Of a stretch of DNA of 13,936 nt, positions 1-13,936 are shown piece by piece (the first letter of the stretch is position 1; each line of letters opens with the position of its first letter). Source of the DNA: Candidatus Thorarchaeota archaeon. GTDB taxonomy: Archaea; Asgardarchaeota; Thorarchaeia; Thorarchaeales; Thorarchaeaceae. The position numbers and the translations under genes were made by a program. The notes under the pieces are model-generated. The model worked only from the letters and a program-made list of their open reading frames with translations, had not been told where the DNA came from and did not search any database. Location of the stretch: assembly GCA_016839345.1 (NCBI GenBank), contig JAEOUL010000227.1, positions 1 to 13,936 of the forward strand. Reading direction: 5' to 3'.

Positions 1-96
1 CAAATACTCGCATCTTGCGAACATCTGACTCTCGTGCATAAGGGAATTTCGCTTGATGAGAAGCTGGAAAATAGCTGCTCGAAGGGAGATGCTTAA
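1..96 (+). CDS. possible 3' end of an upstream gene (partial)
   Basis: Frame 1 is open from the first base of the window to a TAA at 94-96 and encodes about 31 residues, ending in LENSCSKGDA. The other two forward frames close quickly (TGA at 26-28, TAA at 37-39). No domain can be recognised in so short a tail. It could be the C-terminus of a gene preceding the ABC operon or an open stretch by chance. If real, its stop overlaps the TATA-like element proposed for the ABC operon. Confidence 0.25.
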   Translation, partial: QILASCEHLTLVHKGISLDEKLENSCSKGDA

Positions 97-99
97 AAC
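91..99 (+). promoter_or_regulatory. possible TATA box of the ABC operon
   Basis: GCTTAAAAC lies about 40 nt upstream of the TTG start at 137. An archaeal transcript would start near 120, leaving a short leader that contains the ribosome binding site GGTGA (123-127). This rests only on AT-rich resemblance and spacing. Confidence 0.35.
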
Positions 100-136
100 G
101 GAGTCCTTCTAGTTTCGGAGTTGGTGAATTCACACG

Positions 137-910
137 TTGGTTGGCAAGAATCACGTTGCAGTGGACTGCATCGATGTACACCGCGAGTTCCAAGATGGCT
201 CAAGAGTCATCAAAGTACTTCAAGGTACAAATCTCCGAGTCGATCGTGGTGAGTTTGTAGCAATCGTAGGGGCTTCCGGTTCTGGAAAGACCACATTGCT
301 GAATCTCATTGGAGGACTTGACCAGCCAACTTCTGGTAAAATTCTCATAGATGGTGAGGATATTACTCTCCTTAATGATGAAAAGATGTCAGAAGTACGA
401 CGGCATAAAATTGGAGTCCTGTTCCAGGATCAACATCTACTCCCAATATTCACTGCACTCGAGAATGTTGAGGTGCCTATGCTTCTTGATGATGTCCCAG
501 AAGCGGAACGTAAAGAACGAGCCATGAAAATTCTCCAAACTGTTTTTGTTGACCATAGATCTCAACATATGCCCCATGAACTTTCAGGAGGAATGCGCTC
601 ACGCGTTGCATTAGCACGAGCTCTGGCCAATGACCCCGCTGTCCTGCTATGCGATGAGCCTACTGGTGACCTTGATCACACCACAGGTGGAGAGATTATC
701 CAGTTGATGCGAAATCTTGCAAAGACCCAGAATCGTGCAGTGATTGCTGCAACACACGATCCTGAAACTGCACGAATGGCTGACAGGATCCTATTGCTCC
801 GCGATGGAGTTCTTGTTGACGAACTTGTTGGTGACTTCTTTAAAGCCAGTAGAGTTGATGTTGGGACAACTAAGAATGGTACTCCGCGTGAAACATCTGC
901 TTTGGAGTGA
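137..910 (+). CDS. ABC transporter ATP-binding protein, LolD/MacB type
   Basis: This is a cytoplasmic ATPase that should power the adjacent FtsX-type permeases. All nucleotide-binding motifs are visible: Walker A GASGSGKT (45-52), Q-loop Gln97, signature LSGGM (149-153), Walker B VLLCDEP (169-175) with D-loop GDLD, and switch His207. The signature is unusual: LSGGM followed by RSR, where LolD/MacB ATPases usually have LSGGQ and a Gln-rich stretch. At 257 residues it is slightly longer than a minimal LolD, the excess being a polar C-terminal tail after residue 230. The start is TTG, supported by GGTGA nine bases upstream and an in-frame stop at 125-127; GTG at 161 is an alternative. Its stop codon overlaps the ribosome binding site of the first permease, so it is the first gene of the operon. 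Confidence 0.93.
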   Translation: MVGKNHVAVDCIDVHREFQDGSRVIKVLQGTNLRVDRGEFVAIVGASGSGKTTLLNLIGGLDQPTSGKILIDGEDITLLNDEKMSEVRRHKIGVLFQDQHLLPIFTALENVEVPMLLDDVPEAERKERAMKILQTVFVDHRSQHMPHELSGGMRSRVALARALANDPAVLLCDEPTGDLDHTTGGEIIQLMRNLAKTQNRAVIAATHDPETARMADRILLLRDGVLVDELVGDFFKASRVDVGTTKNGTPRETSALE

Positions 911-915
911 TCTGA

Positions 916-3807
916 GTGGGTTTAGCTAGAAAGACCCGGAAAATCGAAAAGAAGGGCAATAGAGCCTATGGACTTTCCTATGCTATGAGTTCTATTCGAG
1001 CTAATCCCTTTCGAGCAATTAGTCTAGCACTTACACTCAGTCTAGGTATCAGTCTCTTTGCCTCAACAATGGTCTGGGGTGATACTGGGGTCTATGTAAG
1101 CATCTACGAGTATGTTGAACAAAATGCATTCCAACTTCAAATATCTTCAGAGTTGGGTGATTATGGAGAGTTGAGTCTTGCTGAAGAATACATACAACAA
1201 GACCCTTTGGTTGAACAGACGTATAGAATTAACTCAACTATTGGAATAGTCTGGGGAACGGAGTTAGACGATAGCACTGTGTATGATATTGATGGTCATG
1301 TATACAGTGATGGCATGAAGGACTGTAGGGTCATCTTTGTTGATAATGATTTTCTCCAATTGACAGAGCAGGAGTACTGGATTCAAGGGTCTTTTCAACT
1401 TGGAGCAGGAGAGATAGCAGTTTCTGCAAATTTCATCTATTACTACAATTCACTCTATGATTACGAACCACAGATTAACGACACGATAGATATTGAACTT
1501 CTCACTGAAGTGACTTCAACTGAACCAAATATGATTGGCAATCTTGGAAGGATTAGCCTGACTGAATTGAAGATTGTAGGAATATATAATCCCAAGCCAT
1601 TAAATTCAATTATTGAACAAGCACTTCCCTCAATGTCCAGGGCACATCTGAATAACACGAATCTCCGTTATCCCGTTCTTGGATTGCGTGACAGTGTGAT
1701 GATTCTGAAAGATTCAATCCCTACCAACTCACTCCCAGAGGATAGTTATTTTGAATCTTCGACCTTGGTTCGGTTCTCCGCAGGCGCATTGGCTGTGTCA
1801 GGTCCAGAGAATATTGCATCCAACCTTTTCGGTTTGGCAGATCGAGTGGACCAACGATTCAGTATTGAATGGGTTGGGATTGGGAAAATCCAGGAGATGC
1901 AAACATCTGTTAATACCTATGTTTCTACTCTCTCACTCTCTATCTTGGCTCTCCCCATCATTCTTCTTGCACTATTCTTCTCAGTCTTTGCTGCTGATAC
2001 TTTCATGGCTCCCCGAACAGTAGAAGTCGGTATAATCCGGTCCAAAGGTGCATCCTATTCCCAAGTTTCGAGCATTTTCCTTTGGGAAACTCCCATCATT
2101 GGTTCCTTGGCTGTTGTGTTTGGTATCGTCTTCAGTGTCCTCTTTGCTCCATTGATACCATCAAGTTTGGACTTCATGTCATTTGACTGGAGTATTTACA
2201 CATACTACCTGTCACAGACAGTCATTTCCACAAGTACACTTCTGAGATCAATTGGATTGACTGTTTTACCCAGTATGCTATTCATACTCTATCTTGGCAG
2301 GAAAGCCGCCTCGACCGAGATTGGTCTTACTCTGATGGAGTTCACAGAAGATCCTACTGAGCATGTTGAATCCCATGGATTTACTATCGGCGCTTCGGTA
2401 GTACTTCTCTTAATTGTGGTCATCATGATGTACTTACTTCCCAAAGATCCCATGCTATTCCTCTTGGAGATTGGACTTGGTACTGCTTCATGGTTCTTTA
2501 TTGCCTATAATGGATCTAGAGTTTCACGTGTTGGACTCGCTCGAATCTCCGAGAAACTCTCTTTTGTCCTTGGTCAGAAGAACCTCATATCAGCTGGCTA
2601 TCTCAGAATGCGTAAGGGACGTATCATTCCACTCATGGTTGTTCTTGCGCTCACAATGTCATCAACAATTGCGTTTGCTGTTCAATCAGAGAGTCTTAAG
2701 GTTGATCTCTCCCGAGAGGTTGATTATGCTATAGGTGCGGATATTCGCATTGATTGTACAGCGAAAGAGCTGAGTTTCAATGACACACTGACTTCAATTG
2801 AGGGTGTTGAACGAGTCACACCTGTTCTTACAACTTGGGCGCGGATTGGAATTGATGAAATAACGCTCGAAGCAATATACCCGGATGAATATGCAGAGAT
2901 AGGACACTTTGATCAATCGAGTTTTCCAAACTCCGACCCTACTACAGTACTTGCAGCACTTGAAGCTGCGCCAAATGGCATCATTATCAGCGATTTTCTT
3001 TCATCTCGGCTGAATAAGCCTGTTGGAGATAATCTGACCTTAGAAATGGAAAGTCCGCTTGGAATCCAACAAGTCATGTTCACCATAGTTGGAGTTGTAC
3101 ACAGCGCACCAGGCTTTGGATATGCCTCTATAGCAAACATGCCCTATTCCACTCTAGGATCAGGATTTGGTTTCCAGACAGGTTATGGTGGTTTTCTCAT
3201 TGCAAATCTAGATTTTGTAGCATTTGAAACAGGGATAGAAACTGTTGAGCTCTTCTTTGGAGAACTATCTCAAACAGCCAACAAAACACAAATTCTTGAA
3301 GATATGCAGACTATGCCAGATATCTATCCAAATATCCCTTCAGAGTTCGACCTAAAAACGCATTCACTATACACATCGCTGTTTCTCAATACAGTGGAGG
3401 GACTATTCTCAATTGGTTTCCTCATGTCATTGATACTCAGTATTTTTGCATTATCAATATCACTAGGTTCGGTAGTTCGAGAACGTCGGAAAGAGTATGC
3501 TGTGATGCGTGCAATAGGAGGGTCGAAACGTCAAGTCGTGAGTATGGTATTTTCTGAATTTTCCGGTGTTGTTCTTGCATCACTAGCGTTAAGCATAATC
3601 CTTGGAGCTGTCTTTGGATTTGTAATGGGCTTCTTACTAAATAATATGAGTCCCTTCTCAAGAGTCTTGGGAGCCACTATATCGTTTCCACTTGGCTTTC
3701 TCTCGATAGTCCTTTTCCTAGAAATCTTCACGATGGTGATTGGATCCTATCTGCCAGCGCGAGAAGCAGCAAACACAGACCCCGCAGTGGTTCTGAGAAA
3801 TATGTGA
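916..3807 (+). CDS. FtsX/MacB-family ABC permease, ten membrane helices (copy 1)
   Basis: This large integral membrane protein (963 aa) is in the type VII ABC family, which transmits ATP-driven motion across the membrane rather than moving substrate through a channel. Predicted helices lie near residues 33-54, 337-360, 392-413, 443-461, 491-507, 511-531, 570-589, 828-850, 880-907 and 922-944. Two large extracytoplasmic domains (about 55-335 and 590-827) follow helices 1 and 7, giving a duplicated FtsX layout. The motif RRKEYAVMRAIGGSKRQ (857-873), after helix 8, is the classic FtsX cytoplasmic segment thought to contact the ATPase. The GTG start at 916 has GGAGTGAT (904-911) four bases upstream, overlapping the stop of the ATPase gene. 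It is a paralogue of the next gene: both have SAPGF near 730-740 and end in VLRNM. The substrate cannot be told. Confidence 0.92.
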   Translation: MGLARKTRKIEKKGNRAYGLSYAMSSIRANPFRAISLALTLSLGISLFASTMVWGDTGVYVSIYEYVEQNAFQLQISSELGDYGELSLAEEYIQQDPLVEQTYRINSTIGIVWGTELDDSTVYDIDGHVYSDGMKDCRVIFVDNDFLQLTEQEYWIQGSFQLGAGEIAVSANFIYYYNSLYDYEPQINDTIDIELLTEVTSTEPNMIGNLGRISLTELKIVGIYNPKPLNSIIEQALPSMSRAHLNNTNLRYPVLGLRDSVMILKDSIPTNSLPEDSYFESSTLVRFSAGALAVSGPENIASNLFGLADRVDQRFSIEWVGIGKIQEMQTSVNTYVSTLSLSILALPIILLALFFSVFAADTFMAPRTVEVGIIRSKGASYSQVSSIFLWETPIIGSLAVVFGIVFSVLFAPLIPSSLDFMSFDWSIYTYYLSQTVISTSTLLRSIGLTVLPSMLFILYLGRKAASTEIGLTLMEFTEDPTEHVESHGFTIGASVVLLLIVVIMMYLLPKDPMLFLLEIGLGTASWFFIAYNGSRVSRVGLARISEKLSFVLGQKNLISAGYLRMRKGRIIPLMVVLALTMSSTIAFAVQSESLKVDLSREVDYAIGADIRIDCTAKELSFNDTLTSIEGVERVTPVLTTWARIGIDEITLEAIYPDEYAEIGHFDQSSFPNSDPTTVLAALEAAPNGIIISDFLSSRLNKPVGDNLTLEMESPLGIQQVMFTIVGVVHSAPGFGYASIANMPYSTLGSGFGFQTGYGGFLIANLDFVAFETGIETVELFFGELSQTANKTQILEDMQTMPDIYPNIPSEFDLKTHSLYTSLFLNTVEGLFSIGFLMSLILSIFALSISLGSVVRERRKEYAVMRAIGGSKRQVVSMVFSEFSGVVLASLALSIILGAVFGFVMGFLLNNMSPFSRVLGATISFPLGFLSIVLFLEIFTMVIGSYLPAREAANTDPAVVLRNM

Positions 3808-3810
3808 GGT
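3791..3810 (+). repeat. 20-bp direct repeat, copy 1, at the permease 3' end
   Basis: TTCTGAGAAATATGTGAGGT matches 6707-6726 at 19 of 20 positions. It covers the last codons, the stop and the ribosome binding site core of the following gene. It is read as a remnant of the tandem duplication that produced the two permeases. Confidence 0.8.
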
Positions 3811-3816
3811 GAGAAA

Positions 3817-6723
3817 GTGGCGAGAAAGAAATCTAAAGGAATTCTGAAAGGCAATCGGCTTTGGGCCATGAGCCACGCAATCTCCTCTCTCAAGACTTAC
3901 AAAATACGAAATATCGGAATTGCTATTATTCTGGCAATTTGCGTGGCCATTCCAACAACTGTGTTTGCATGGACGAATACAGGCACTCGAATCGCAGTTG
4001 AGGATTTCATCAACAACAACCCGTACCAGCTAAGTGTAATTGACCCTGGAGCAGACCGTCATTTTGAAGATCTTTTAGAAATAGAGGACTGGATTGTATC
4101 CAGTCCCTATATCGAGTATGCTCGGATGACTCCAAGTACTGTAGGTATTCTAAGGATTGATGGCGTTACAACAGAGTGGGATGAATACCGACCTACTGAT
4201 GTAGTGTACAATGATGGAATCAAAGATACACGTGTTATTGTAGTAACTCCAGAAATCCTTCAAGAATGGTCCACCGAACTGGCATGGACTGGAAATAATT
4301 CCATTGGACCAAATCAAATCTTAGTTTCACAATATTTCATCGATACAGCGGAAGAGGTCACAGGCGTTGTAATAGGGATTGGTTCGGAGATTGGTATTGA
4401 TATTCTTCGTAATTACTATGTTCCAGACCCCCGAATTCCATTTGATCCACTCCCCCTTGACCGTATCATTGTGAGAAACCTGACAGTTGCAGGAATATTC
4501 GATGTAGTGACATGGTCAATTCTGGCTCAGTCCTACCCCGCTGTCATACGTCCCAGTTGGCGATCTGATGCAAGTGACGCTGCCATGGGCTTGCGTGATT
4601 CAATTCTTATTCTTGAAGAAACCCTTGATAAAGAAACGGTTGAAAAGATCACTACCACCGGATACTTTTCACCGGTGGAGTTTTTCCGTGGTTCAGTACG
4701 TGGACTTATTGATGGTGGACCTTCCAATGCAGCATTCAATTTACGAGATTTGAAAATCCAAATTCTGGAGAATAATATTGTATTTGATGTGTTTGGAGAA
4801 AGTTTCCTTGATGATCTTCAGATGCATATCTCTACATATTTCTCTGGTCAAGTACTGATTATCCTAGCCATACCAATCATGATCATGAGTCTGATGCTGA
4901 CACTGTTCACATCTGAAACATCCGTTGCTCAGAAGAAAGGTGAAGTTAGTGCACTAAGAGCAAAAGGAGCCTCATTCAATCAGATATTTTCAGCATTCAT
5001 TTACGAGTCGTTAATACTTGCGAGTTTTGGATATATTTTGGGAATCATTCTAACCACATTTATGGCTCCACTTATGGGCTCTTCCACTGGTTTATTGTCA
5101 TTTGATCCTGTTTTGTATGATCAGTATCTAACCAAACTACTGATACCTGGTCAATCTTTAGCACTTGCAGTTGCTATCACTATGTTCCTGCCAGCTGCAT
5201 ACTTGGTTCATGTGGCACGACGAATTGATGTTGGTGAAATCGGTCAACCTACAGCAAGGATGACCTATGAAGTGCCAGAAGAAGTAAATATGTGGTACTA
5301 TGTGCTTGCTCTAGGAGGAACACTCTCAATCCTTCTCCTAATGCCTATTCTGATTAATCCTGTTGGTCAGATTGCTTTAATTCAGATACTCATTGCTGCA
5401 ATGTTGCTATTTGCCGCATCATATCTCGGTTCTAGAGCCATGCGCCTGGTCACTGCGAAGGCATCTGAGAAAGCTGGTGGCTTGATGGGAGAAAAGAAAC
5501 TGTACATGACACAAAGTCTCAAGAGACGCAAAGGTCAGTTTATTCCACTCCTTGTCATCTTGACCATGACATTGACTACAACTTCAATGATGCTAATTCA
5601 AACTGCGAGTTTTCAGAACACACTAGAAAATGAGGCAAATTACGCTTTAGGTTGTGATTTGAGGATAGAGGTCTATGACCAACCTTTAGATTGGACTATC
5701 ACATTATCGAGTTATTCCGGCGTAGAAGCGGTGACTCCCGTACTCGAACTATTATCCTACTTTGAGGATGAAGGATTCTATCTTGAAGGATTAGACGCAG
5801 ATACCTACTTGGAAATAGGGAACTTCAAGGAAACAAGTTTTGTTGATGGTTCGCCTGAAACTGTATTGAGCAATCTTCAAAATACTGCTAATGGCATCAT
5901 CATCAGTCAGTATTATGCCACAGAATGGAATGTATCTTCAGGAGATACGATACAGATTGATGTTCCCACGTTTGATCAAATTGGGACCACTGAAAATTTT
6001 GTGGTGGTCGGAGTGATGAAAAGTGCGCCTGGTTTTGGTATGGCATCCACTCGTGACCTCAAGGGTATACCCTTTGGTACATATTTTGGCTTTCAGCCTG
6101 GAAGAGGAGGGTTCGCACTAGTCAACCTAGCCTTTCTATCCATACACACTGGGTTCCACACAGCTGATCTATTTCTAGCTATGACAACATCTTTTGAAGA
6201 TGTATCTCCCCTACTAGAGTTCTTGGACTCTGAACGTTGGATGGAATACTACACGCCTGAAACTATAGAGTTCAGTTCGAACAGTGTAGCCGGACTATTT
6301 TTGGCAGGACTAGAGGGTCTCACGATGATCAGTTTCATCACGTGTGCAGGCATGGGCATTGCTTCTATCGTTTTATTCCTTGGCTCTGCTGTCCTTGAGA
6401 GAGAACCAGAGTATGCGCTATTTCGTGCCATTGGTGGTACAAAACGACAAGTGATCTCCCTCGTATTTGGCGAGTTTGCGGGAAGTGTGATGGCAGCCGT
6501 TGTAATAAGCTTGGGTCTAGGAATCTTGTTTGGTTACTCTATGACACTACTGACATTTGGTATCTCAACAGTGTGGCCCATACTCCCCAAGCTGTTCACA
6601 TACCCTCTGACAGTTATGTTTCTGACTGTGGTTGTTGAGTGTGCAGCTATGATTGCATCGTGCTATTTCCCAGCACGTAGAGCAGGGAATACTGATCCTG
6701 CTGATGTTCTAAGAAATATGTGA
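3817..6723 (+). CDS. FtsX/MacB-family ABC permease, ten membrane helices (copy 2)
   Basis: This 968-aa membrane protein has the same architecture as the preceding gene. Predicted helices lie near residues 31-52, 342-365, 394-417, 443-466, 493-510, 515-536, 572-594, 833-858, 885-908 and 928-950, with extracytoplasmic domains at about 53-340 and 595-830. The coupling segment EREPEYALFRAIGGTKRQ (861-878) matches copy 1 except that its basic start (RERRKE) has become EREPE. Shared blocks include YNDGIKDTRV (131-140), MGLRDSILIL (257-266), KSAPGF (735-740) and the VLRNM C-terminus. The GTG start has GAGGTGA (3806-3812) four bases upstream, formed partly by the previous stop codon. The two permeases may form a heterodimer, as LolC and LolE do, or serve two separate transporters. 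Divergence is considerable, so the duplication is old. Confidence 0.92.
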   Translation: MARKKSKGILKGNRLWAMSHAISSLKTYKIRNIGIAIILAICVAIPTTVFAWTNTGTRIAVEDFINNNPYQLSVIDPGADRHFEDLLEIEDWIVSSPYIEYARMTPSTVGILRIDGVTTEWDEYRPTDVVYNDGIKDTRVIVVTPEILQEWSTELAWTGNNSIGPNQILVSQYFIDTAEEVTGVVIGIGSEIGIDILRNYYVPDPRIPFDPLPLDRIIVRNLTVAGIFDVVTWSILAQSYPAVIRPSWRSDASDAAMGLRDSILILEETLDKETVEKITTTGYFSPVEFFRGSVRGLIDGGPSNAAFNLRDLKIQILENNIVFDVFGESFLDDLQMHISTYFSGQVLIILAIPIMIMSLMLTLFTSETSVAQKKGEVSALRAKGASFNQIFSAFIYESLILASFGYILGIILTTFMAPLMGSSTGLLSFDPVLYDQYLTKLLIPGQSLALAVAITMFLPAAYLVHVARRIDVGEIGQPTARMTYEVPEEVNMWYYVLALGGTLSILLLMPILINPVGQIALIQILIAAMLLFAASYLGSRAMRLVTAKASEKAGGLMGEKKLYMTQSLKRRKGQFIPLLVILTMTLTTTSMMLIQTASFQNTLENEANYALGCDLRIEVYDQPLDWTITLSSYSGVEAVTPVLELLSYFEDEGFYLEGLDADTYLEIGNFKETSFVDGSPETVLSNLQNTANGIIISQYYATEWNVSSGDTIQIDVPTFDQIGTTENFVVVGVMKSAPGFGMASTRDLKGIPFGTYFGFQPGRGGFALVNLAFLSIHTGFHTADLFLAMTTSFEDVSPLLEFLDSERWMEYYTPETIEFSSNSVAGLFLAGLEGLTMISFITCAGMGIASIVLFLGSAVLEREPEYALFRAIGGTKRQVISLVFGEFAGSVMAAVVISLGLGILFGYSMTLLTFGISTVWPILPKLFTYPLTVMFLTVVVECAAMIASCYFPARRAGNTDPADVLRNM

Positions 6724-6726
6724 GGT
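6707..6726 (+). repeat. 20-bp direct repeat, copy 2, at the permease 3' end
   Basis: TTCTAAGAAATATGTGAGGT is the partner of 3791-3810, with one mismatch. It contains the stop codon of permease copy 2 and the GAGGT that serves the ATPase start at 6734. Confidence 0.8.
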
Positions 6727-6733
6727 AGTAATA

Positions 6734-7765
6734 ATGAATTCATCATTGGAAATCAAAGAGGAACTTGACCTATACAGTGAACTTCCTGATGATGTTGTAG
6801 TTAGTGTCAATGACTGCTATAAGATCTACAAGGCTCAGGAACTAGAGGTTGTTGCACTGAGTGGTGTATCACTTCAAATTCTTGAAGGAAAGATAATGGC
6901 TGTTGTAGGTCCTAGTGGTTCTGGAAAAACCACCCTAATCAATGTCATAGGTGGAATAACTAAGGCAACTGTCGGTAAGGTCTATTGGGCCAATCTGAGG
7001 ACTGACATCACAAAATTGAGTGAGAGAATTCTGACAGAAGCTAGACGCAATTTCATTGGATTTCACTTCCAGCTGAACAATCTACTACCTCATCTCAATG
7101 CTTGGCAGAATGTCGAGCTTGCTGCTAGGATTGCAGGTGTTCCACGAAGAGTCCGAAAGGAACGAGTTGACAAACTAATCAAAATGGTGGGTCTTGAGGA
7201 ACGCAAACGGAATAGCGCAACTACTCTGAGCGGTGGTGAGAAGTCACGAGTCGCTATAGCAAGCGCCTTGGTCAATCTTATTGACACAGAGGGGAAGGGA
7301 CTTGTCTTATGTGATGAACCGACAGGTGACCTAGATCCTGAAACTGGAGAACGGATTCTTGACTTGTTTCAGGAGCTGAACGAAACCATTGGAACATCGT
7401 TCTTCATTGTCACACACAGTCAGCAAGTTGCATCAAAGGCTGATGTCACAGTGGAACTCCGTGATGGAGTAATCTCTGGGTTCCATCAAACAGGAATTGA
7501 CTTGGATACACTAGACACAACACGTATAGTCCGACTTGACGACAAGCATAGACTTCCAATGCCCACTGACCTGTTGGATCTTGCAGGGAACCCTCGTGAG
7601 TTCCGTCTGAGCTATACTGACAATAGGTTCACATTAGTGCCACAGACTGGTGAGGTTGTTGATTCCATGCGAGCGAAGAAAGCCAGAATCTGCAGAGTCT
7701 GCGGTGAAACCATCGCTGCTGGTAAATTCATCTGTCCAAACTGCGGTAGCCAAGTTACAATATAG
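6734..7765 (+). CDS. LolD/MacB-type ABC ATPase with a C-terminal zinc ribbon
   Basis: This is the second ATPase of the operon, 343 aa, roughly 100 longer than a usual LolD. Its motifs are Walker A GPSGSGKT (59-66), Q-loop Gln113, signature LSGGE (165-169) followed by KSR, Walker B VLCDEP (191-196) with GDLD, and switch His228. The ATPase core ends near residue 248. About 65 residues without a recognised domain follow, then a zinc ribbon with Cys320-x2-Cys323 and Cys334-x2-Cys337 close to the C-terminus. Such a ribbon is not part of the standard LolD fold and may be a docking or regulatory module. An N-terminal acidic extension of about 20 residues is also present. The ATG start follows GAGGT (6722-6726). 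The gene ends two bases from the convergent Toprim gene. Confidence 0.92.
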   Translation: MNSSLEIKEELDLYSELPDDVVVSVNDCYKIYKAQELEVVALSGVSLQILEGKIMAVVGPSGSGKTTLINVIGGITKATVGKVYWANLRTDITKLSERILTEARRNFIGFHFQLNNLLPHLNAWQNVELAARIAGVPRRVRKERVDKLIKMVGLEERKRNSATTLSGGEKSRVAIASALVNLIDTEGKGLVLCDEPTGDLDPETGERILDLFQELNETIGTSFFIVTHSQQVASKADVTVELRDGVISGFHQTGIDLDTLDTTRIVRLDDKHRLPMPTDLLDLAGNPREFRLSYTDNRFTLVPQTGEVVDSMRAKKARICRVCGETIAAGKFICPNCGSQVTI

Positions 7766-7767
7766 CT

Positions 7768-8262
7768 TCAAGATAAATTGCGACTTGCTTCTGGCGAGTC
7801 GCTTCTCTTGAAGAGAGATACAAGCTGCTCTATAGTGGTCCAAGTGTCCATGTATTTGCGAATCATTCGTCTTTCTCTCTTTAGATTCTTGACACCATTT
7901 AACTCAAGTCCTTTCTCAATGAACCTGTAAATCTCCTTTCCTTTTTTGTCAAAATCTGTCAGAATGAGCACTTGTCCTTCTTTTCCAGCATTCGCTACAA
8001 TCTTCTCAACTAGTCTGTCTCTCGACAATCGAGTCTGCGTTTTGATAATTGGTGCATCGAGTCCAAGATTTCTGAGAACAGCAACATCTCGTTTTCCTTC
8101 AACTACAACAATCAGATTCTCGTACTTCAAATCCAGCTTCTGGATGAATTCAATGAGAGCTTTCTCATTATCATTCAATCTTCTGGCACGTCTCTGTTCA
8201 ATGGCTTTTGTTCTCCAGAGGTTTCCCTTTTCCCATAGTGAGTCATCTTTATCGTTACTCAA
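7768..8262 (-). CDS. stand-alone Toprim-domain protein (archaeal UPF0292-like)
   Basis: This small (164 aa) predicted metal-dependent nucleic-acid enzyme has a Toprim fold like those of DnaG primase, topoisomerases and RNase M5. The catalytic Glu is Glu55 in VVVEGKRD (52-59), and the metal-binding DxD is Asp103-Phe-Asp105 in LTDFDKKG. A basic N-terminal region (residues 19-33) precedes the domain, and a Lys/Arg-rich stretch lies at 125-137. Length and motifs match the small archaeal UPF0292 group, for which I know no established function. The start is TTG, chosen because GGTG lies six bases upstream and no in-frame ATG precedes the domain. It begins 18 nt after the dehydrogenase stop on the same strand, so the two are probably co-transcribed. 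Confidence 0.85.
   Translation of the reverse strand: MSNDKDDSLWEKGNLWRTKAIEQRRARRLNDNEKALIEFIQKLDLKYENLIVVVEGKRDVAVLRNLGLDAPIIKTQTRLSRDRLVEKIVANAGKEGQVLILTDFDKKGKEIYRFIEKGLELNGVKNLKRERRMIRKYMDTWTTIEQLVSLFKRSDSPEASRNLS
7780..7802 (+). terminator. hairpin just after the ABC operon
   Basis: GCGACTTGC and GCGAGTCGC flank a five-base loop and form a nine-bp stem with one G-U pair when transcribed on the + strand. It begins 15 nt after the ATPase stop and lies inside the 3' end of the convergent Toprim gene. The minus-strand transcript would carry an A-C mismatch at the wobble site, so the structure suits the + transcript better. No strong T-run follows, so it may be an RNA 3'-end stabiliser rather than a terminator. 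Confidence 0.4.
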
Positions 8263-8280
8263 TAATTACACCAGAATTTG

Positions 8281-9312
8281 TTAGAGCGTGATTGCTACTT
8301 TCATTGTTTCTCCAGCCCCCATCATATCTAACGCCTCAGTGATCTTCTCAATTGGCATCTCGTGAGATATCAAGAGGTCTGGATTCACATCTCCTGCAAT
8401 TATATGTTTCAAAGCCAAATCAACATGTCTAGGCTTGAGGTGAAATACACCTTTTATTGTGAGTTGACCATAGTGAAATCTTCCAGTGTCTAACTCGAAT
8501 TTGGTCCCAGAAGCGGCACCACCGAAAAGAACAGTAGTACCTGCATCCCGTGTCATATCCACAGCCTGTTCCCAGGTCTGCCGTATTCCAACTGCTTCGA
8601 TTACTACATCTGCTCCCATTCCTGAGGTTTCTTGCTTTACCCGCTCAACTGGATTTTCCTTTGATGGGTCTATGACAATATCTGCTCCTGCCTTCAGTGC
8701 GATGTTCCTTCTTAGCTCTGCTAGGTCTGAAGCTATGACACTTGAAGCACCATTCTTTTTTGCCAACATTATCAGCATTTGCCCAATCGGTCCAGCTCCA
8801 ATGACAACTACAGTGTCGCCGAGTTTGATGTTGGCTTCCTCGATTCCATGGACCACACACGCTAGGGGCTCCGTGAGTGCCGCATCTCTGAAAGACAAAG
8901 AGTCTGGTATCTGATGAGTATTCCATTGAACAACAGCCTTTGGAACTCTGATATACTCTGCAAAGGCTCCATTCACAAGACTGTCTTTCAACTTTGCACA
9001 TAGGTTCGGCATGTCCCTATTGCAGAAGAAACAGTCTCCACATGGTGCAGAATTGGTCGCGACGACTCTCATTCCTACCTTAAAGTTCTTGACTCCTTCT
9101 CCAACTGCCTTTATAGTGCCTGCGTACTCATGACCAAAAAGAGCAGGAGTGTGTTTGATTAACAGGGGATGACCCCGCTTGTAGGTCTTGACATCAGTCC
9201 CACAGGTGAGAGCGGTTCCCACCTGAATCAACAGTTCACCAGGACCTATCTCTGGAATATTGGTTTCCTCATATCGAACATCACCAACACCATAGTACAT
9301 TGCAGCTTTCAT
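8281..9312 (-). CDS. zinc-dependent medium-chain alcohol/polyol dehydrogenase
   Basis: This is a cytoplasmic NAD(P)-dependent oxidoreductase of the MDR family, related to sorbitol and threonine dehydrogenases. Numbering from the start chosen here (343 aa), the catalytic zinc ligands are Cys37, His61 and Glu62, with Glu148 in TEPL as a possible further ligand. The structural zinc site is Cys91, Cys94, Cys97 and Cys105. The Rossmann motif is GAGPIG (172-177), and Asp196 at the end of the next strand favours NAD over NADP. The open frame runs to 9390, but the extra 26 residues are basic, unlike the family, and contain the probable TATA box; MKAAMYYG is the typical N-terminus. ATGs at 9324 and 9330 are alternatives. 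The substrate cannot be inferred. It is followed closely by the Toprim gene. Confidence 0.9.
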   Translation of the reverse strand: MKAAMYYGVGDVRYEETNIPEIGPGELLIQVGTALTCGTDVKTYKRGHPLLIKHTPALFGHEYAGTIKAVGEGVKNFKVGMRVVATNSAPCGDCFFCNRDMPNLCAKLKDSLVNGAFAEYIRVPKAVVQWNTHQIPDSLSFRDAALTEPLACVVHGIEEANIKLGDTVVVIGAGPIGQMLIMLAKKNGASSVIASDLAELRRNIALKAGADIVIDPSKENPVERVKQETSGMGADVVIEAVGIRQTWEQAVDMTRDAGTTVLFGGAASGTKFELDTGRFHYGQLTIKGVFHLKPRHVDLALKHIIAGDVNPDLLISHEMPIEKITEALDMMGAGETMKVAITL

Positions 9313-9353
9313 CTTTCGAGACATGAACATCCCAGAGCATGCTCTCACAGACT

Positions 9354-9361
9354 GTTTAAAT
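9354..9361 (-). promoter_or_regulatory. TATA box of the dehydrogenase gene
   Basis: On the minus strand the sequence reads CATTTAAACAG, a strong archaeal TATA match. A start about 26 nt downstream falls near 9331, immediately before ATGs at 9330, 9324 and 9312. The transcript would therefore be leaderless or nearly so. This supports the shorter protein. Confidence 0.55.
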
Positions 9362-9393
9362 GACTTCCTGACTGTCCGTGTCTTGACCACAAC

Positions 9394-9401
9394 GCTTAAT
9401 C
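9394..9401 (+). promoter_or_regulatory. possible TATA box of the OsmC-family gene
   Basis: GCTTAATC lies about 30 nt upstream of the ATG at 9429. The predicted transcript start near 9424 would give a very short leader. It lies back to back with the dehydrogenase promoter in an intergenic region of about 115 bp. The match is weak. Confidence 0.35.
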
Positions 9402-9428
9402 AATCCTCAACAGGTGTTCGACTGGCTG

Positions 9429-9887
9429 ATGACAATGCGCTTGAAGTCGAAATATCCTGAACACTTGGAGTATCATGCTCAAAGCACTTGGGACGGAAAA
9501 ACTGGCGGCACAACCTCCGCTGCTGCTGATCGTCAAATAGTATATGATACGCCCAAGACTTATGGTGGTCGAGGAGAGGGAATCTGTCCGGATGAGATAT
9601 TCGTTTCTGCTGTCCTTAGTTGTCTTAACAACACATTCCTTGATTTCCAACGGCGCTTTGAGATGAAGCTAGTTTCTTTAAAGCTCAAGGGAAAAGCCAC
9701 AGCCAAGTTTGATGGTGAAGGATACAAGATTACAGGAGTTTCGGTTAGTGGAGAGATTGTTGTTGGAGAAGATGAACTAGAAACTGGTGCGCGATGTGTC
9801 GAGCTGATGAAAAAATATTGCCACCTCACTCGAACAATACAGGACTGCATTCCTATAGAGTTCAATCTATCAGTCCAAGAAGGCTAG
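9429..9887 (+). CDS. OsmC/Ohr-family protein
   Basis: This is a small cytoplasmic protein (about 152 aa from this start) of the OsmC/Ohr family, whose characterised members reduce organic peroxides with a pair of cysteines. The two expected cysteines are present in typical settings. One is in VSAVLSCLNNTF, on the central helix after GICPDEIF. The second is in KKYCHLTRTI, about 66 residues later. The N-terminal strands and the SLKLKGKATAKF strand also fit. The frame is open from GTG at 9414, but the predicted transcript start falls after it, so ATG 9429 or 9435 is preferred; GGTG sits 12 bases before 9429. Many archaeal OsmC-like proteins have no tested peroxidase activity. The stop codon interlocks with that of the convergent Mut7-C gene. 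Confidence 0.8.
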   Translation: MTMRLKSKYPEHLEYHAQSTWDGKTGGTTSAAADRQIVYDTPKTYGGRGEGICPDEIFVSAVLSCLNNTFLDFQRRFEMKLVSLKLKGKATAKFDGEGYKITGVSVSGEIVVGEDELETGARCVELMKKYCHLTRTIQDCIPIEFNLSVQEG

Positions 9888-10372
9888 GACATCCCTTCCA
9901 TAAGTTTCGAGATTCTCTTCATGTATAATTCGATATTCTTCCAGTGCCCTCCTTGAAAGAAGACGCTGCTGCAATCTTTACACAACCAAAACTCGTCATA
10001 ATAATCGAATGTCTGTTCAAAGACAAGACCCTTCACTTGTTCTTTGTCAGCATCTTTGATTGAAACAAGACTGCCATTGCATTTACTACAGCGAGACAAT
10101 GTGGGATCTATCTTGGGGGGTATGTTGAATTGAGCAAAGACACGAGCCACCCCTTCATCCACAGAACCTCTAAGAAGAAGTGAATCAAGATTCTGACTCT
10201 TTGCACGATTATGGAGCCCTGCATCTGACGTTATGATTATCCGATCCTCATCTTGAGAAACTTGGAGCAGCTCATCATCATGCATTTCAGTAGAGTATCG
10301 AGTGTCATGTCCTGTTAGTCTTAGCCAAAGGGCAAGCTTCCCTAACATAGCATCTACGATGAATTTTTTCAT
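9884..10372 (-). CDS. Mut7-C-type PIN-like ribonuclease with zinc ribbon
   Basis: This 162-aa protein belongs to the Mut7-C (DUF82) group, named after the C-terminal domain of the MUT-7 exonuclease and predicted to be a PIN-fold ribonuclease. The hallmark N-terminus is present: FIVDAMLGKLALWLRLTGHD (4-23) with Asp7. Further acidic candidates are Asp32/Asp33, and Asp50 in ITSDAGL. A zinc ribbon follows with Cys95-x2-Cys98 and Cys131-x2-Cys134. It is the last gene of a four-gene operon. Its ATG overlaps the amidohydrolase stop as ATGA, and GGTGA lies six bases before the start, so translation is probably coupled. The RNA target is unknown. Confidence 0.88.
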   Translation of the reverse strand: MKKFIVDAMLGKLALWLRLTGHDTRYSTEMHDDELLQVSQDEDRIIITSDAGLHNRAKSQNLDSLLLRGSVDEGVARVFAQFNIPPKIDPTLSRCSKCNGSLVSIKDADKEQVKGLVFEQTFDYYDEFWLCKDCSSVFFQGGHWKNIELYMKRISKLMEGMS

Positions 10373-11274
10373 CCCTTCTCACCAAAGATGACACGTGCAG
10401 TATTTTTCCACATAACCTTCTCAATCTCGTCTTCCCTGACCTGTTTGTAGCCCTGATCAATCATTTCCGTTGGCATCTTCAAGCTTTTACAAAACTCAAC
10501 CCACTTCTCAAGACGCATTGTGCTTTCAAAGAGAGGATAATCACTACCAAAGAGTATACGATTGGGAAACACTCTCATTATTTTTGCGTGAGCTATCATC
10601 TGATAGACTTTCAATGGTACGGTTGATGCATAAATCTGCCATCCTGATATATCAATAGACACATTCGGGTTTTTAGCTGCAACCATCAGCGTTTCATCAA
10701 CCCAAGGAAAACCAACATGAGCAAGTATAATTTTCAGATCAGGAAAATCCGCAGCAACTCTATCAACATATACTGGTCTGGCATACTTCACATGTTTGTA
10801 CCTAGGAGTAATCCCCTGATGAATTAGAATGGGAATGTCTAGATCCACACAGAGCTCATAGTACAGGTCAAACTCATCGTCATCTGGATAGAATCCATTG
10901 GGGGGATACAATTTCCATCCTCTGCACCCTTTCTCTCTTACTGCACGTTCTAATTCATCTAGTCCTGTTTTTCCCCGTCTTGGATCTATTCCTACAAATG
11001 TCACTATGTTAGGATGATCGACCACTTCATCAGCGTGATGATTTGTTTTCTCAGTCAGTGATAACGGCATTTTCTGATGATATCCACTATCAATAGGAAG
11101 AACTACAGCTCTATCAACTCCACTCCTCTTCATTGCCTCTACAAGAGCGTCAATTGTGGAATCTAGTACTGGATCCGCCCCTGTCCTTTCAGCTGCGATT
11201 TTTCTTGCTTCCAGGTCTCTCGCACTTATGATATCTCGAGTCCATGTATGAGTATGCACATCAATAACTTTCAA
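10369..11274 (-). CDS. metal-dependent amidohydrolase (Amidohydro_2 type)
   Basis: This 301-aa TIM-barrel metallohydrolase is of the amidohydrolase-2 family, which includes hydrolases and non-oxidative decarboxylases. Visible metal-site motifs are His7-x-His9 in DVHTHT, Lys121 in GWKLYPP, His152 in ILIHQG, His186 in LAHVG and Asp245 in FGSDYP. The length is typical and the C-terminus (NTARVIFG) is as expected for the family. The TTG start overlaps the PHP gene's TGA as TTGA. It is well supported by GGAGGAAGGTGA, which ends four bases upstream, and by HxH lying at the usual distance from the start. The substrate is not evident; its neighbours are a PHP phosphoesterase and a predicted ribonuclease. 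Confidence 0.9.
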   Translation of the reverse strand: MKVIDVHTHTWTRDIISARDLEARKIAAERTGADPVLDSTIDALVEAMKRSGVDRAVVLPIDSGYHQKMPLSLTEKTNHHADEVVDHPNIVTFVGIDPRRGKTGLDELERAVREKGCRGWKLYPPNGFYPDDDEFDLYYELCVDLDIPILIHQGITPRYKHVKYARPVYVDRVAADFPDLKIILAHVGFPWVDETLMVAAKNPNVSIDISGWQIYASTVPLKVYQMIAHAKIMRVFPNRILFGSDYPLFESTMRLEKWVEFCKSLKMPTEMIDQGYKQVREDEIEKVMWKNTARVIFGEKG

Positions 11275-12113
11275 ACAGTCACCTTCCTCCGCATCTCATC
11301 GATTACTTCGATTGGCACAGTAATACTTCCAAGCTCTGTGACATGAAAGGTTCCATGATAATCACTACCACCGGTCTGAAGCAAGTGCCAGTCCCGACTT
11401 ATCTCTTTGACCTCTTCAGGTGAACGATTTATTCTCATGTAGCTGTAGTCATATTCTACCTCAACACCCAGGAGACCTTCTCTCACAAGTTTTTGAATGA
11501 ATGAATAGAGGTCTGGTACTTTGATTGTGAGTGGGTGTGCTAAAACAGGAACTGCACCAACTGATCTTAGCAACCTCACTACATCAAGAGCTTTCAGCCT
11601 TTCTTTCTTTACATAGGCTGGTCTATTAATGGCTAAGTATTTTTGAAACGCCTCAGTTGTGGTTTGTACAATTCCTTTCTTCACAAGCATTTGTGCAACA
11701 TGAGGTCGACCTGGACTTGCTACTCCCTCTAAGTCATTGTACAGTTCTTCTATTGAAACATCAATACCCAGATCATTGAGCTTCTGAATCATCTTTGGTA
11801 ACCGGTCATGTCTTGCTTTTCTGAGAAAATCAAGTTTGATGTTGAGTTGTTTTGAGTCCAAGGGTACAAAATATCCTAGGATGTGCACTTCCTTATCCTC
11901 GTAGTCAGAGCTTATCTCTAATCCTGGGATTCGCATCAGTTCATCTGATGCATCCGCATCCATGAATTCCTTAATCCCACTAAGTGAATCGTGGTCTGTG
12001 AGTGCAATACCTCCCAAGCCCAGCTTGCCAGCTTTTCTAACCAACTCAGTGGGGGAGTCACTTCCATCAGACGCAGACGAATGTAAGTGCAGATCAGCAC
12101 GGGCTTTCACCAT
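11271..12113 (-). CDS. PHP-domain phosphoesterase (TrpH/YciV-like)
   Basis: This 280-aa protein has the PHP fold of the TrpH/YciV group; characterised members act as 3',5'-nucleotide bisphosphate phosphatases or 5'-3' exonucleases on short RNA. The metal-binding residues are in order: His9 and His11 in DLHLHS, Asp16, Asp40-His41 in TDHDS, Glu66 in GLEIS, His77 in HILGYF, the GRPH motif (135-138), His193 in LAHP, and Asp251 and His253 in GGSDYHG. Length matches the family (about 280-290 aa). The start is ATG with GGAGG six bases upstream, overlapping the YkgJ-type gene by 20 bp. The activity is inferred from family motifs; RNA or nucleotide substrates would fit the ribonuclease encoded downstream. 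Confidence 0.9.
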   Translation of the reverse strand: MVKARADLHLHSSASDGSDSPTELVRKAGKLGLGGIALTDHDSLSGIKEFMDADASDELMRIPGLEISSDYEDKEVHILGYFVPLDSKQLNIKLDFLRKARHDRLPKMIQKLNDLGIDVSIEELYNDLEGVASPGRPHVAQMLVKKGIVQTTTEAFQKYLAINRPAYVKKERLKALDVVRLLRSVGAVPVLAHPLTIKVPDLYSFIQKLVREGLLGVEVEYDYSYMRINRSPEEVKEISRDWHLLQTGGSDYHGTFHVTELGSITVPIEVIDEMRRKVTV

Positions 12114-12510
12114 GTGCAGCCTCCTGTCTCAGTGTTTCTACGAGGTTCCGTACTTTGTGACACACTTTCCGAATCTCTTCACGAGTCACAGTTTCTCTAG
12201 AGGGACAGTCTTTATCTATGATGCATTTCCTTCTTCTTGCATCATAGATTATTGGATAATATCTGCACCCTTCTGGTCTGTCCTCATAGATACGACATTC
12301 CTTATTCTCTCTATCATAAAAGTAACAGAATCCATCAACATTCTTCAGTTCACAGAATCCCGCCATCGCTCGCACAAGAAAATCAGTTCTATTGTATCCC
12401 AGAGCCTCAATACGTTCTGCATCTTCTCGAGTGAGTGTCATCTCGGTTTCAGTGCAACAGAGTCGAATCTCTTCACATGATCCATCATGGTTGCATACAA
12501 AGGGAGTCAA
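12094..12510 (-). CDS. YkgJ-family cysteine-cluster protein
   Basis: This 138-aa protein matches the YkgJ/CxxCxxCC group, predicted to bind zinc or iron; the function is unknown. Twelve cysteines are present. Cys6, Cys12, Cys18 and Cys19 lie at the N-terminus, followed by the usual MTLTREDAERIE segment. Then come Cys53, Cys62, Cys72 and Cys82, the last within RPEGCRYYP (78-86), the best-conserved family signature. Cys96 and Cys102 follow in a basic segment. The TTG start at 12510 has GGAGA about ten bases upstream and puts the first cysteines at a normal position. It is the first gene of the operon with the PHP, amidohydrolase and Mut7-C genes. Its leader includes the possible C/D box RNA. 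Confidence 0.87.
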   Translation of the reverse strand: MTPFVCNHDGSCEEIRLCCTETEMTLTREDAERIEALGYNRTDFLVRAMAGFCELKNVDGFCYFYDRENKECRIYEDRPEGCRYYPIIYDARRRKCIIDKDCPSRETVTREEIRKVCHKVRNLVETLRQEAAHGESPC

Positions 12511-12540
12511 AGTACTAGGTTCTCCTGCCAGGTTGGCGCA

Positions 12541-12614
12541 TCGGTCAGATTGCGGTTTCGCGGTTCATCACGCTGATGAGGTCGTTCACCTTCCCTACTT
12601 CATCATCATCCCGA
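12541..12614 (-). ncRNA. candidate C/D box guide sRNA
   Basis: Read on the minus strand, the segment has a C box ATGATGA (12609-12603, or shifted three bases to 12606-12600 in a GAT repeat). It also has a C' box GTGATGA (12571-12565) and a D box CTGA (12548-12545). A terminal stem pairs TCGG (12614-12611) with CCGA (12544-12541), and two wobble pairs extend it. A TATA-like box about 26 nt upstream would start the RNA right at the stem. Against it, the spacers (16 nt before D, about 28 nt between C and C') are longer than the roughly 12 nt usual in archaea. The D' box is degenerate (GTGA or CTCA), and C' is half of a small dyad. It could instead be a structured leader of the YkgJ operon. Confidence 0.4.
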
Positions 12615-12638
12615 CAGGGGATAAGTAGTGACTCAAGG

Positions 12639-12660
12639 CTAAATATGCTTTCTAAATATC
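12639..12660 (-). promoter_or_regulatory. tandem TATA-like boxes upstream of the sRNA/YkgJ operon
   Basis: On the minus strand ATATTTAG occurs twice, 13 bp apart (12659-12652 and 12646-12639). The proximal copy predicts a start near 12617, which matches the 5' end of the candidate C/D RNA. The distal copy predicts a start near 12630. These boxes probably drive the YkgJ-PHP-amidohydrolase-Mut7-C operon. Confidence 0.5.
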
Positions 12661-12663
12661 ACT

Positions 12664-12969
12664 TCAGAGGTTTCTTCTAGCCAGACGCCTTGATGGGGAA
12701 AGGTCCTTTGTCATATCATCGATTGTATTTCCAGTTGGTAGTTCTTGAACTGGCAGTTTCTTTCCAGTGATTTTGAAGTATGCTTGAGCTCTGACAGCAC
12801 GTACTAGCGTCATAAGATCAGTGGGCTGTGAAGTAGCACCTAAAAGCAGTTGTCGGCGCCTGCCAAATACATCAAGCAGTCTATCTAGTATTTTCATTGA
12901 AATCCATTTACTGATTCTCTTGAATTGCTCAAAAGGATTTGCAATAGCACATACTCTCCTTCTTTTCAC
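12664..12969 (-). CDS. hypothetical small basic protein (uncertain)
   Basis: The open frame encodes 101 aa from a GTG start, or 79 aa from an ATG at 12903. The protein is strongly basic (RRR at 3-5, GRRRQ, and SRRLARRN at the C-terminus) and contains helix-like stretches such as LMTLVRAVRAQAYFKITGKK. I recognise no family, signal peptide or metal site. No good ribosome binding site precedes either start. A TATA-like element at 12982-12989 could serve this strand as well as ABCE1; a minus-strand start near 12960 would then favour the shorter form. It fills the space between the ABCE1 promoter and the sRNA promoter. It could be a lineage-specific gene or a chance ORF. Confidence 0.35.
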   Translation of the reverse strand: MKRRRVCAIANPFEQFKRISKWISMKILDRLLDVFGRRRQLLLGATSQPTDLMTLVRAVRAQAYFKITGKKLPVQELPTGNTIDDMTKDLSPSRRLARRNL

Positions 12970-12973
12970 TCAG

Positions 12974-12989
12974 CCAAAGCGCTAAATAG
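12974..12989 (+). promoter_or_regulatory. BRE/TATA promoter of ABCE1
   Basis: CCAAAGCG followed by CTAAATAG fits an archaeal purine-rich BRE plus TATA box. It predicts a transcript start near 13011 and a leader of about 28 nt containing AGGTG (13022-13026). The TATA core reads similarly in both directions. Confidence 0.5.
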
Positions 12990-13038
12990 TCTCCAAAAAC
13001 ATCCTCGCATAGCTCCTCTACAGGTGTTGAAACAACAG

Positions 13039-13936
13039 ATGCGTATCGCCATAGTCGATAAGTTTCGATGCAGGCCAAAAGACTGCACTCATGAGTGTCA
13101 GAGATTCTGTCCAAGAGTCAGGACTGGGGATGAAACTGTAGTCTTTCCAGAAGGTCCAGATAAACCACCAGTCATAGTGGAGGCTCTATGCTCTGGTGAG
13201 GCAATATGCGTAAAGAAATGTCCTTACAATGTCATTCGAATAGTGAATCTGCCTGAGCAGCTAGAGACTGATACAAGCCATCGGTACAACGTCAATGGGT
13301 TTAAGCTGTTCAGACTTCCTATTCCCAAAGATGGTCAGGTTTTAGGACTCATCGGACCAAATGGTGTTGGAAAAACAACTGCAATACAGATCCTAGCAGG
13401 AGAGATGTCACCCAACTTGGGTCGTTTTGACGATCCTCCGGATTGGGATGAGATTATCAAGGAGTATCGTGGTTCTGAACTGCAACCCTTCTTTGAGAGA
13501 ATCCAATCTGGTTCTTTAACACCAATCCTAAAACCACAAAACATCACAGACCTACCAAAGGTGAAAGAGCTAGCTGAACGGCCAATCAGCGATTTACTCG
13601 AAGCCTCTGACTCATCAGGTCGGCTGAAGGAACTCAAGGATGACATGGGTCTGAACGAGATCTGGGACCGTCCAATCAAGGTTCTGAGTGGTGGAGAACT
13701 TCAGAGAGTTGCAGTCACAGCAGCTATTGTTCGAGATGGTGACATCTACTTCTTTGACGAACCGACAGCTTACCTAGACGTCAGAGAACGTCTTCGAATG
13801 GCTCGTGCCATCAGAAAACTATCATCACTGGGGAAGACAATTGTCGTAGTTGAACACGACCTATCAATACTCGATTATGTTTCAGACCTCGTCTGCATGT
13901 TCTACGGAGATCCCGGAGTCTATGGTATAGTTTCGC
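13039..13936 (+). CDS. rli1: ABCE1/Rli1 ribosome-recycling ATPase (5' part, cut by window end)
   Basis: This is the N-terminal 299 residues of ABCE1, the soluble iron-sulfur ABC ATPase that splits ribosomes after termination in archaea and eukaryotes. The ferredoxin-like domain has a normal first motif (Cys11, Cys16, Cys20, Cys24-Pro). The second motif has Cys51, Glu54, Cys57 and Cys61-Pro, so the second of its four cysteines is replaced by glutamate. The first ATPase domain follows: Walker A GPNGVGKTT (106-114), RGSELQ (144-149), signature LSGGELQR (216-223), Walker B IYFFDEP (236-242) and switch His273. The hinge and second ATPase domain lie beyond the window. ATG 13039 is chosen because MRIAIVDK matches the family N-terminus and AGGTG precedes it by 12 nt; GTG 13024 is in frame as an alternative. 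It stands alone on this strand with its own promoter. Confidence 0.96.
   Translation, partial: MRIAIVDKFRCRPKDCTHECQRFCPRVRTGDETVVFPEGPDKPPVIVEALCSGEAICVKKCPYNVIRIVNLPEQLETDTSHRYNVNGFKLFRLPIPKDGQVLGLIGPNGVGKTTAIQILAGEMSPNLGRFDDPPDWDEIIKEYRGSELQPFFERIQSGSLTPILKPQNITDLPKVKELAERPISDLLEASDSSGRLKELKDDMGLNEIWDRPIKVLSGGELQRVAVTAAIVRDGDIYFFDEPTAYLDVRERLRMARAIRKLSSLGKTIVVVEHDLSILDYVSDLVCMFYGDPGVYGIVS

Follow-up and report, generated by a model that had tools for sequence, protein, structure and literature searches.

The ribosome-recycling ATPase ABCE1 (Rli1, RLI) splits ribosomes with aRF1/aPelota. Excerpts of the published literature rank it with the best-conserved proteins that Archaea and Eukarya have, and describe eight cysteines, likewise conserved, as binding two iron-sulfur (Fe-S) clusters of the [4Fe-4S] type. 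We consider here the ABCE1 gene at the end of a 13,936-nucleotide stretch of a Candidatus Thorarchaeota contig (JAEOUL010000227.1, positions 1 to 13,936; the window), whose product has lost one of these cysteines. The ligands are numbered Cys1 to Cys8 along the protein, the absent one being Cys6; reportedly, Cys4 to Cys7 bind a ferredoxin-like cluster, and Cys1 to Cys3 together with Cys8 the other. Of the eight cysteines of yeast Rli1, reportedly only the one at the Cys6 position can be replaced with the cells staying viable, the mutant then having a [3Fe-4S] cluster.

The closest described counterparts of such a site are in ferredoxins. That of Pyrococcus furiosus carries a CXXDXXC motif and, in the passages available from PMC6237146, its cluster takes the [3Fe-4S] form in air and the [4Fe-4S] form when oxygen is kept out; the same passages give [3Fe-4S] for every ferredoxin examined in which H, N, S, T, Y or F replaces the second Cys, and name A or G as the residue found there in the common [3Fe-4S] ferredoxins. 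The window protein resembles the P. furiosus ferredoxin in that a carboxylate replaces the second Cys of CxxCxxC, an equivalence that the original prediction for this DNA had rightly drawn and that the same text bears out, but it differs in having Glu rather than Asp, the ferredoxin is a small electron carrier, and the ligation is known there but conjectural here. The [3Fe-4S] P450 ferredoxins (CXX?XXC(X)nCP) have, like the ABCE1 family described below, several residues at exactly this position while the other cysteines are fixed; they differ in serving bacterial P450s and in the residues concerned (H, N, Y, S, T and F in these passages of PMC6237146), and the likeness is one of motif, with no membership claimed. 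Finally, excerpts of PMC4523923 describe two single ligand mutants of yeast Rli1, C25S and C61S, that grow without oxygen and not with it. Loss of one ligand is thus tolerated without oxygen in these proteins also, although they are laboratory-made rather than natural and fixed, and neither C25 nor C61 is the Cys6 position.

The ABCE1 reading frame opens at an ATG at position 13039 as the last gene of the window and runs on the forward strand to its end (13039..13936), with the translation MRIAIVDKFRCRPKDCTHECQRFCP...EALCSGEAICVKKCPYN. The window covers 299 residues, the 5' part of a protein of about 606 aa whose 3' part lies beyond the window end. Pfam recognizes Fer4_RLI (42 bits) followed by ABC_tran (68.8 bits), the domain order being seen in the window part, with the Walker A of the first ATPase domain (GPNGVGKTT) at 13354..13380, and in the full-length relatives. 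The best NCBIfam match of the fragment is PRK13409 (RLI), at 405 bits over residues 1-299 against a cut-off of 469, with half of the protein missing; two full-length relatives (P0002 and P0102) each score 812 bits. A predicted model, built from a 48-row alignment, has a mean pLDDT of 91.4, and the entire modelled range (residues 1-299) superposes on the rabbit ABCE1 of a termination complex and on that of P. abyssi. Because the full-length relatives score so highly and the confident model superposes on known ABCE1 structures, the window protein is still ABCE1, with one ligand of one cluster gone; it is a variant of a known protein and not a new kind.

Its first cysteine group is complete (CRPKDCTHECQRFCP): frame translation and alignment to Pyrococcus ABCE1 place Cys1 to Cys4 at residues 11, 16, 20 and 24 (13069..13110, forward strand; CRPKDCTHECQRFC). 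The second Fe-S motif, CSGEAICVKKC (13189..13221, forward strand), reads CSGEAICVKKCP and retains Cys5 (Cys51, TGC, 13189-13191), Cys7 (Cys57, 13207-13209) and Cys8 (Cys61, 13219-13221), so that seven of the eight ligand cysteines are present. The Cys6 position is occupied by Glu54 (GAG, 13198..13200), aligned with the second Cys of the Pyrococcus CTGCGIC, and is followed by Ala55 (GCA, 13201..13203) where the usual residue is Gly. The original prediction had read both substitutions correctly, and GAG does differ from the Cys codons TGT and TGC at all three bases; the Pyrococcus motif is in reality CTGCGICVHKCP and does not end in KKCP.

Could this be an error of the sequence? The nearest relatives are thorarchaeal assemblies, with no more than 92% identity to the window ABCE1. 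Among 35 loci returned, 24 are of the close thorarchaeal type (L001-L022, L024 and L033) and read either CSGEAIC (19/24) or CSGAAMC (5/24; L016 and L019-L022), while Sifarchaeum (L023) and nine other archaea (L025-L032 and L034) have CxGCGIC and the last, L035, is an unrelated bacterial ABC protein. One of the 24, L005, comes from a record titled Lokiarchaeota; its ABCE1 (85% to the window) falls in the thorarchaeal group. From 7,999 proteins scored, the nearest 120 were listed, and 111 of these are readable by pattern, with 106 Glu, 5 Ala and no Cys; of the nine unscored, six read CSGE[AG]IC by eye, two begin past the site and one has an odd N-terminus. Neither faulty assembly or base calling nor the decay of this copy next to a canonical ABCE1 therefore has more than a negligible chance of being the explanation, the non-Cys state being common to the 24 loci, to 38 of 40 thorarchaeal genomes and to the nearest metagenome proteins, all in open frames. 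Moreover, both Glu codons are in use in the 32 thorarchaeal genomes with Glu at this site (12 GAA and 20 GAG), as expected under selection retaining the residue.

Copy number, which the original prediction had proposed to check by looking for a second gene, was examined in the genomes of relatives rather than in that of the window. The single-contig thorarchaeal chromosome G001 has one ABCE1. Fer4_RLI identifies ten long ABCE1 frames in ten thorarchaeal genomes, one each, together with seven extra frames of 178-202 aa and, as a third match in G004, a weak one to a frame of 455 aa; among the short frames that of G001 was checked, and it is a DUF367/Tsr3-type protein. In the class Thorarchaeia as a whole, 42 of 47 genomes have a strong ABCE1 match, which includes the N-terminus in 40 (counted by eye), and the sole point in favour of a decaying copy is G025, the only genome with a further ABCE1. 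The fragment is canonical (CVGCGICVHKCP) and lies at one end of a contig of 5.65 kb; it has 56% identity and may stem from another organism caught in the bin. The survey of loci, genomes and proteins refutes artefact and decay alike for the clade, and the earlier judgement that a base-calling error was unlikely is upheld.

To follow the site through the Asgard archaea, residues were scored by alignment to Pyrococcus ABCE1. A search of the phylum (227 genomes, 196 with a match, supplemented by further fetches) yielded one ABCE1 N-terminus per genome for 40 thorarchaeal and 110 other genomes, to which the counts refer, the remaining matched genomes lying outside them. Thorarchaeal genomes have Glu in 32 cases, Ala in 6 and Cys in 2 at the Cys6 position; the 110 others have Cys in 75, Val in 12, Glu in 9, Thr in 8, Ser in 3 and Ala and Asn in 1 each, with 1 masked, and so 34 of 109 non-thorarchaeal genomes are non-Cys as well. 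With the masked row out, the 149 Asgard rows show 72 losses of Cys6, 5 of Cys2 and none of the other six ligands; the window and all 72 of these rows thus have a CXX?XXC with a non-Cys second position and the other three ligands kept. The loss of Cys6 is real, is widespread in the Thorarchaeia and is repeated in other Asgard lineages. That 72 of 149 rows are without Cys6 bears on how ABCE1 is defined, not on homology. The original prediction had asked whether Glu is conserved as a clade; most thorarchaeal genomes do have it, but what emerges is a recurrent loss across the Asgards rather than a peculiarity of one protein or clade.

Some of these rows are unusual in other respects. In G105, G107, G110 and G135 the row counted is a divergent ABCE1-like copy that has Cys6 (CIACGICVN.CP, CIYCGICLNVCP; L176, L175, L173 and L174, respectively), and G102 has a second Fer4_RLI frame of 616 aa beside its canonical one. 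The motif of L308 (G227), counted as Cys6 present, carries a three-residue insertion (CSGEKACGICIKKCP). Cys2, which binds the other cluster, is lost in one small clade alone, where it is Ser or Thr and Cys6 is kept (L117 in G214, L120 in G216, L122 in G217, L125 in G215 and L144 in G212). The thorarchaeal protein P0116 has Phe for Cys5 in addition to Glu at Cys6 (LFSGEGIC); its relative L070 reads CSGEGIC, and the Cys5 change is perhaps a sequencing error.

Outside the Asgards, Cys6 is present in every scored sequence that we sampled. A search of 151 Thermoproteota genomes matched 149, of which 70 were fetched and 68 scored, all 68 with Cys6. The two left out, L241 and L245, are unalignable owing to an insert in or near the motif; read directly, L241 has Cys6 ahead of an intein-like insertion placed directly before Cys7 (1..1501; G265:C1:378200-379700; CIGCGI / CLDPNTPV...VHN / CVKKCPF), and G241, G257, G273, G289 and G354 perhaps have a like insertion, with frames of 922-927 aa matching from residue 53. 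In the phylum of the Diapherotrites locus L029, which we take to be DPANN, 14 of 19 genomes matched, and Cys6 is found in 13/13 scored, with 1 outside the pattern. The proteins nearest a profile of six non-Asgard ABCE1 have it in 118/118 scored (among 120 listed), as do those nearest Pyrococcus ABCE1 in 117/117 (among 119 new ones listed), the named ones belonging to Thermococcales, Methanocaldococcus, Methanofastidiosum, Methanopyrus and a few others. Haloarchaea and Thermoplasmata lie outside this sampling, and eukaryotes enter it through a few PDB chains only.

A tree of 98 ABCE1 sequences (an IQ-TREE quick tree, with the motif columns removed) requires at least 12 changes between Cys and non-Cys, and 17 between residue types. 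Many of its deep branches are weak, and the 12 changes are a count on one best tree; there are 7 independent contrasting pairs on the well-supported (starred) branches and 12 on all branches. Sister contrasts include G132 (Cys) with G133 (Ala), G055 (Cys) with a Val clade, and G084 (Cys) with G083 (Ser), and the Thr forms G123-G126 share a starred group with G207 (Cys). Much the same pattern is seen in a FastTree of 158 rows; the Cys-bearing thorarchaeal genomes G043 and G044 are basal in it, and lie inside, near G041/G042, in the quick tree. Since the same cysteine has been lost several times independently in the Asgards, it seems to be dispensable in nature.

We consider it probable, at about 0.72, that these proteins carry a ferredoxin-like cluster on three cysteines, either [3Fe-4S] or a [4Fe-4S] with an open site, in an ABCE1 that still works. 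The cluster would be held by Cys4, Cys5 and Cys7 alone; it would be expected as [3Fe-4S] in air, and inside the cells, which look anaerobic, might be [4Fe-4S] with the fourth iron bound by water or some other small ligand or perhaps, where Glu54 is present, weakly by this residue. The fold of the Fe-S domain and its lever action in ribosome splitting would be retained, the cluster serving mainly as a structural pin that tolerates losing its Cys6 ligand. The common factor among the variants is the missing Cys and not the presence of a carboxylate.

The original prediction had instead suggested, by analogy, Glu54 as an Asp-like replacing ligand, which would give a full but labile, carboxylate-ligated [4Fe-4S] cluster. 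We regard this as possible and somewhat doubtful; the redox sensitivity that it also raised is a guess. Glu is in four separate places in the tree (one, G048, weakly placed), the nine non-thorarchaeal Glu genomes occupying three further places beyond the thorarchaeal one, despite the three base changes from TGY to GAR. Such recurrence suggests that Glu is favoured, and no other observation hints as strongly at a function of the altered site; there is also the Asp precedent, with [4Fe-4S] when oxygen is excluded, in the passages of PMC6237146. Nevertheless, the thorarchaeal Ala forms (6/40) sit among the Glu forms in the 98-sequence tree and 12 other Asgard genomes have Val. Because Ala and Val cannot bind iron there, proteins without any ligand at the Cys6 position exist and none is required; a ligating Glu could apply to the Glu forms and is not the whole story for a family that also has Ala, Val, Thr, Ser and Asn.

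Another possibility, which we think unlikely, is that Cys6 became nearly neutral in Asgard ABCE1 for some historical reason and has simply been drifting. Several different residues at the site would agree with such relaxed constraint, as would the following Gly, which is Ala in 42 of the 72 Asgard genomes without Cys6 (and in only 3 of 145 Cys6-bearing rows, all three Thermoproteota). Most replacements, on the other hand, are not those that a single base change would give. Of the residues one step away from TGY, Gly, Arg, Phe, Tyr and Trp account for 0/72 and Ser for 3; the other 69 rows have Glu, Val, Thr, Ala or Asn, at two or three steps. Drift would also leave the retention of Cys6 in the other sampled archaea unexplained. 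As to accompanying changes, the residue before Cys7 is Met in 7/7 Ala forms, which are few and partly related, in 3/145 Cys forms and in 0/65 other non-Cys forms. Among 945 column/residue choices compared over the 7 independent pairs, none changes one way with Cys6 loss in more than about 3, and the pairs are too few for significance.

Absence of oxygen may have a part in the loss of Cys6. A haem-copper oxidase (PF00115) exceeds the cut-off in 7 of 80 Asgard genomes, six with Cys6 and one with Ser, and 41 of the 73 oxidase-negative genomes are without Cys6. This count and the yeast data fit with loss of the ligand being tolerated without air, but the seven form one clade of the tree, and Cys6 is kept by the archaea outside the Asgards.

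Several points weigh against the three-cysteine cluster as we have framed it. Some of the non-Asgard archaea that keep Cys6 belong to groups known as strict anaerobes; with Cys6 kept in the sampled proteins of Thermoproteota, Thermococcales and methanogens, an anaerobic life does not suffice as the cause. The four tree places of Glu argue for a favoured role of this residue beyond mere loss, the predicted model is metal-free and so silent on ligation, and the ferredoxin-like cluster may have been lost completely, though Cys4, Cys5 and Cys7 are fixed in the genome set. A bolder and, in our estimation, rather improbable idea is that the cluster, with an open and exchangeable iron site, switches ribosome recycling in response to iron or redox state, a property that repeated losses of Cys6 would have created and that would be tuned by the replacing residue (Glu, Val, Thr, Ala, Ser or Asn).

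Other ferredoxin motifs of the G001 chromosome (30 fetched Fer4 loci among 84 matches) have the second Cys in 37/40, a weak control since the profile search itself favours Cys; motifs with Asp, His or Leu at that position occur in L329, L345 and L351. Elsewhere in the window, a row of four genes (137-7765) comprises two large permeases of the FtsX/MacB type (963 and 968 aa) with an ABC ATPase on either side. It is followed on the reverse strand by a frame of 164 aa (7771-8262) with no Pfam match at E 1e-5, which by eye we would guess to be a toprim/RNase M5-type protein. Near ABCE1, on the opposite strand (12097-12510), lies a CxxCxxCC protein, putatively zinc- or iron-chelating.

In the open-licence literature, from which subscription papers are absent, no paper on the loss of Cys6 appeared among the matches listed. 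Searches joining ABCE1 to Asgard or Thorarchaeota returned no paper at all, and one joining it to Lokiarchae returned two, on translation initiation. The natural and repeated loss of exactly one ligand, in archaea thought to be the closest to eukaryotes, shows what the cluster can do without, and the Asgards supply a ready-made set of natural variants (Cys, Glu, Val, Ala, Thr, Ser and Asn) for asking whether the clusters of ABCE1 do more than keep the domain together.
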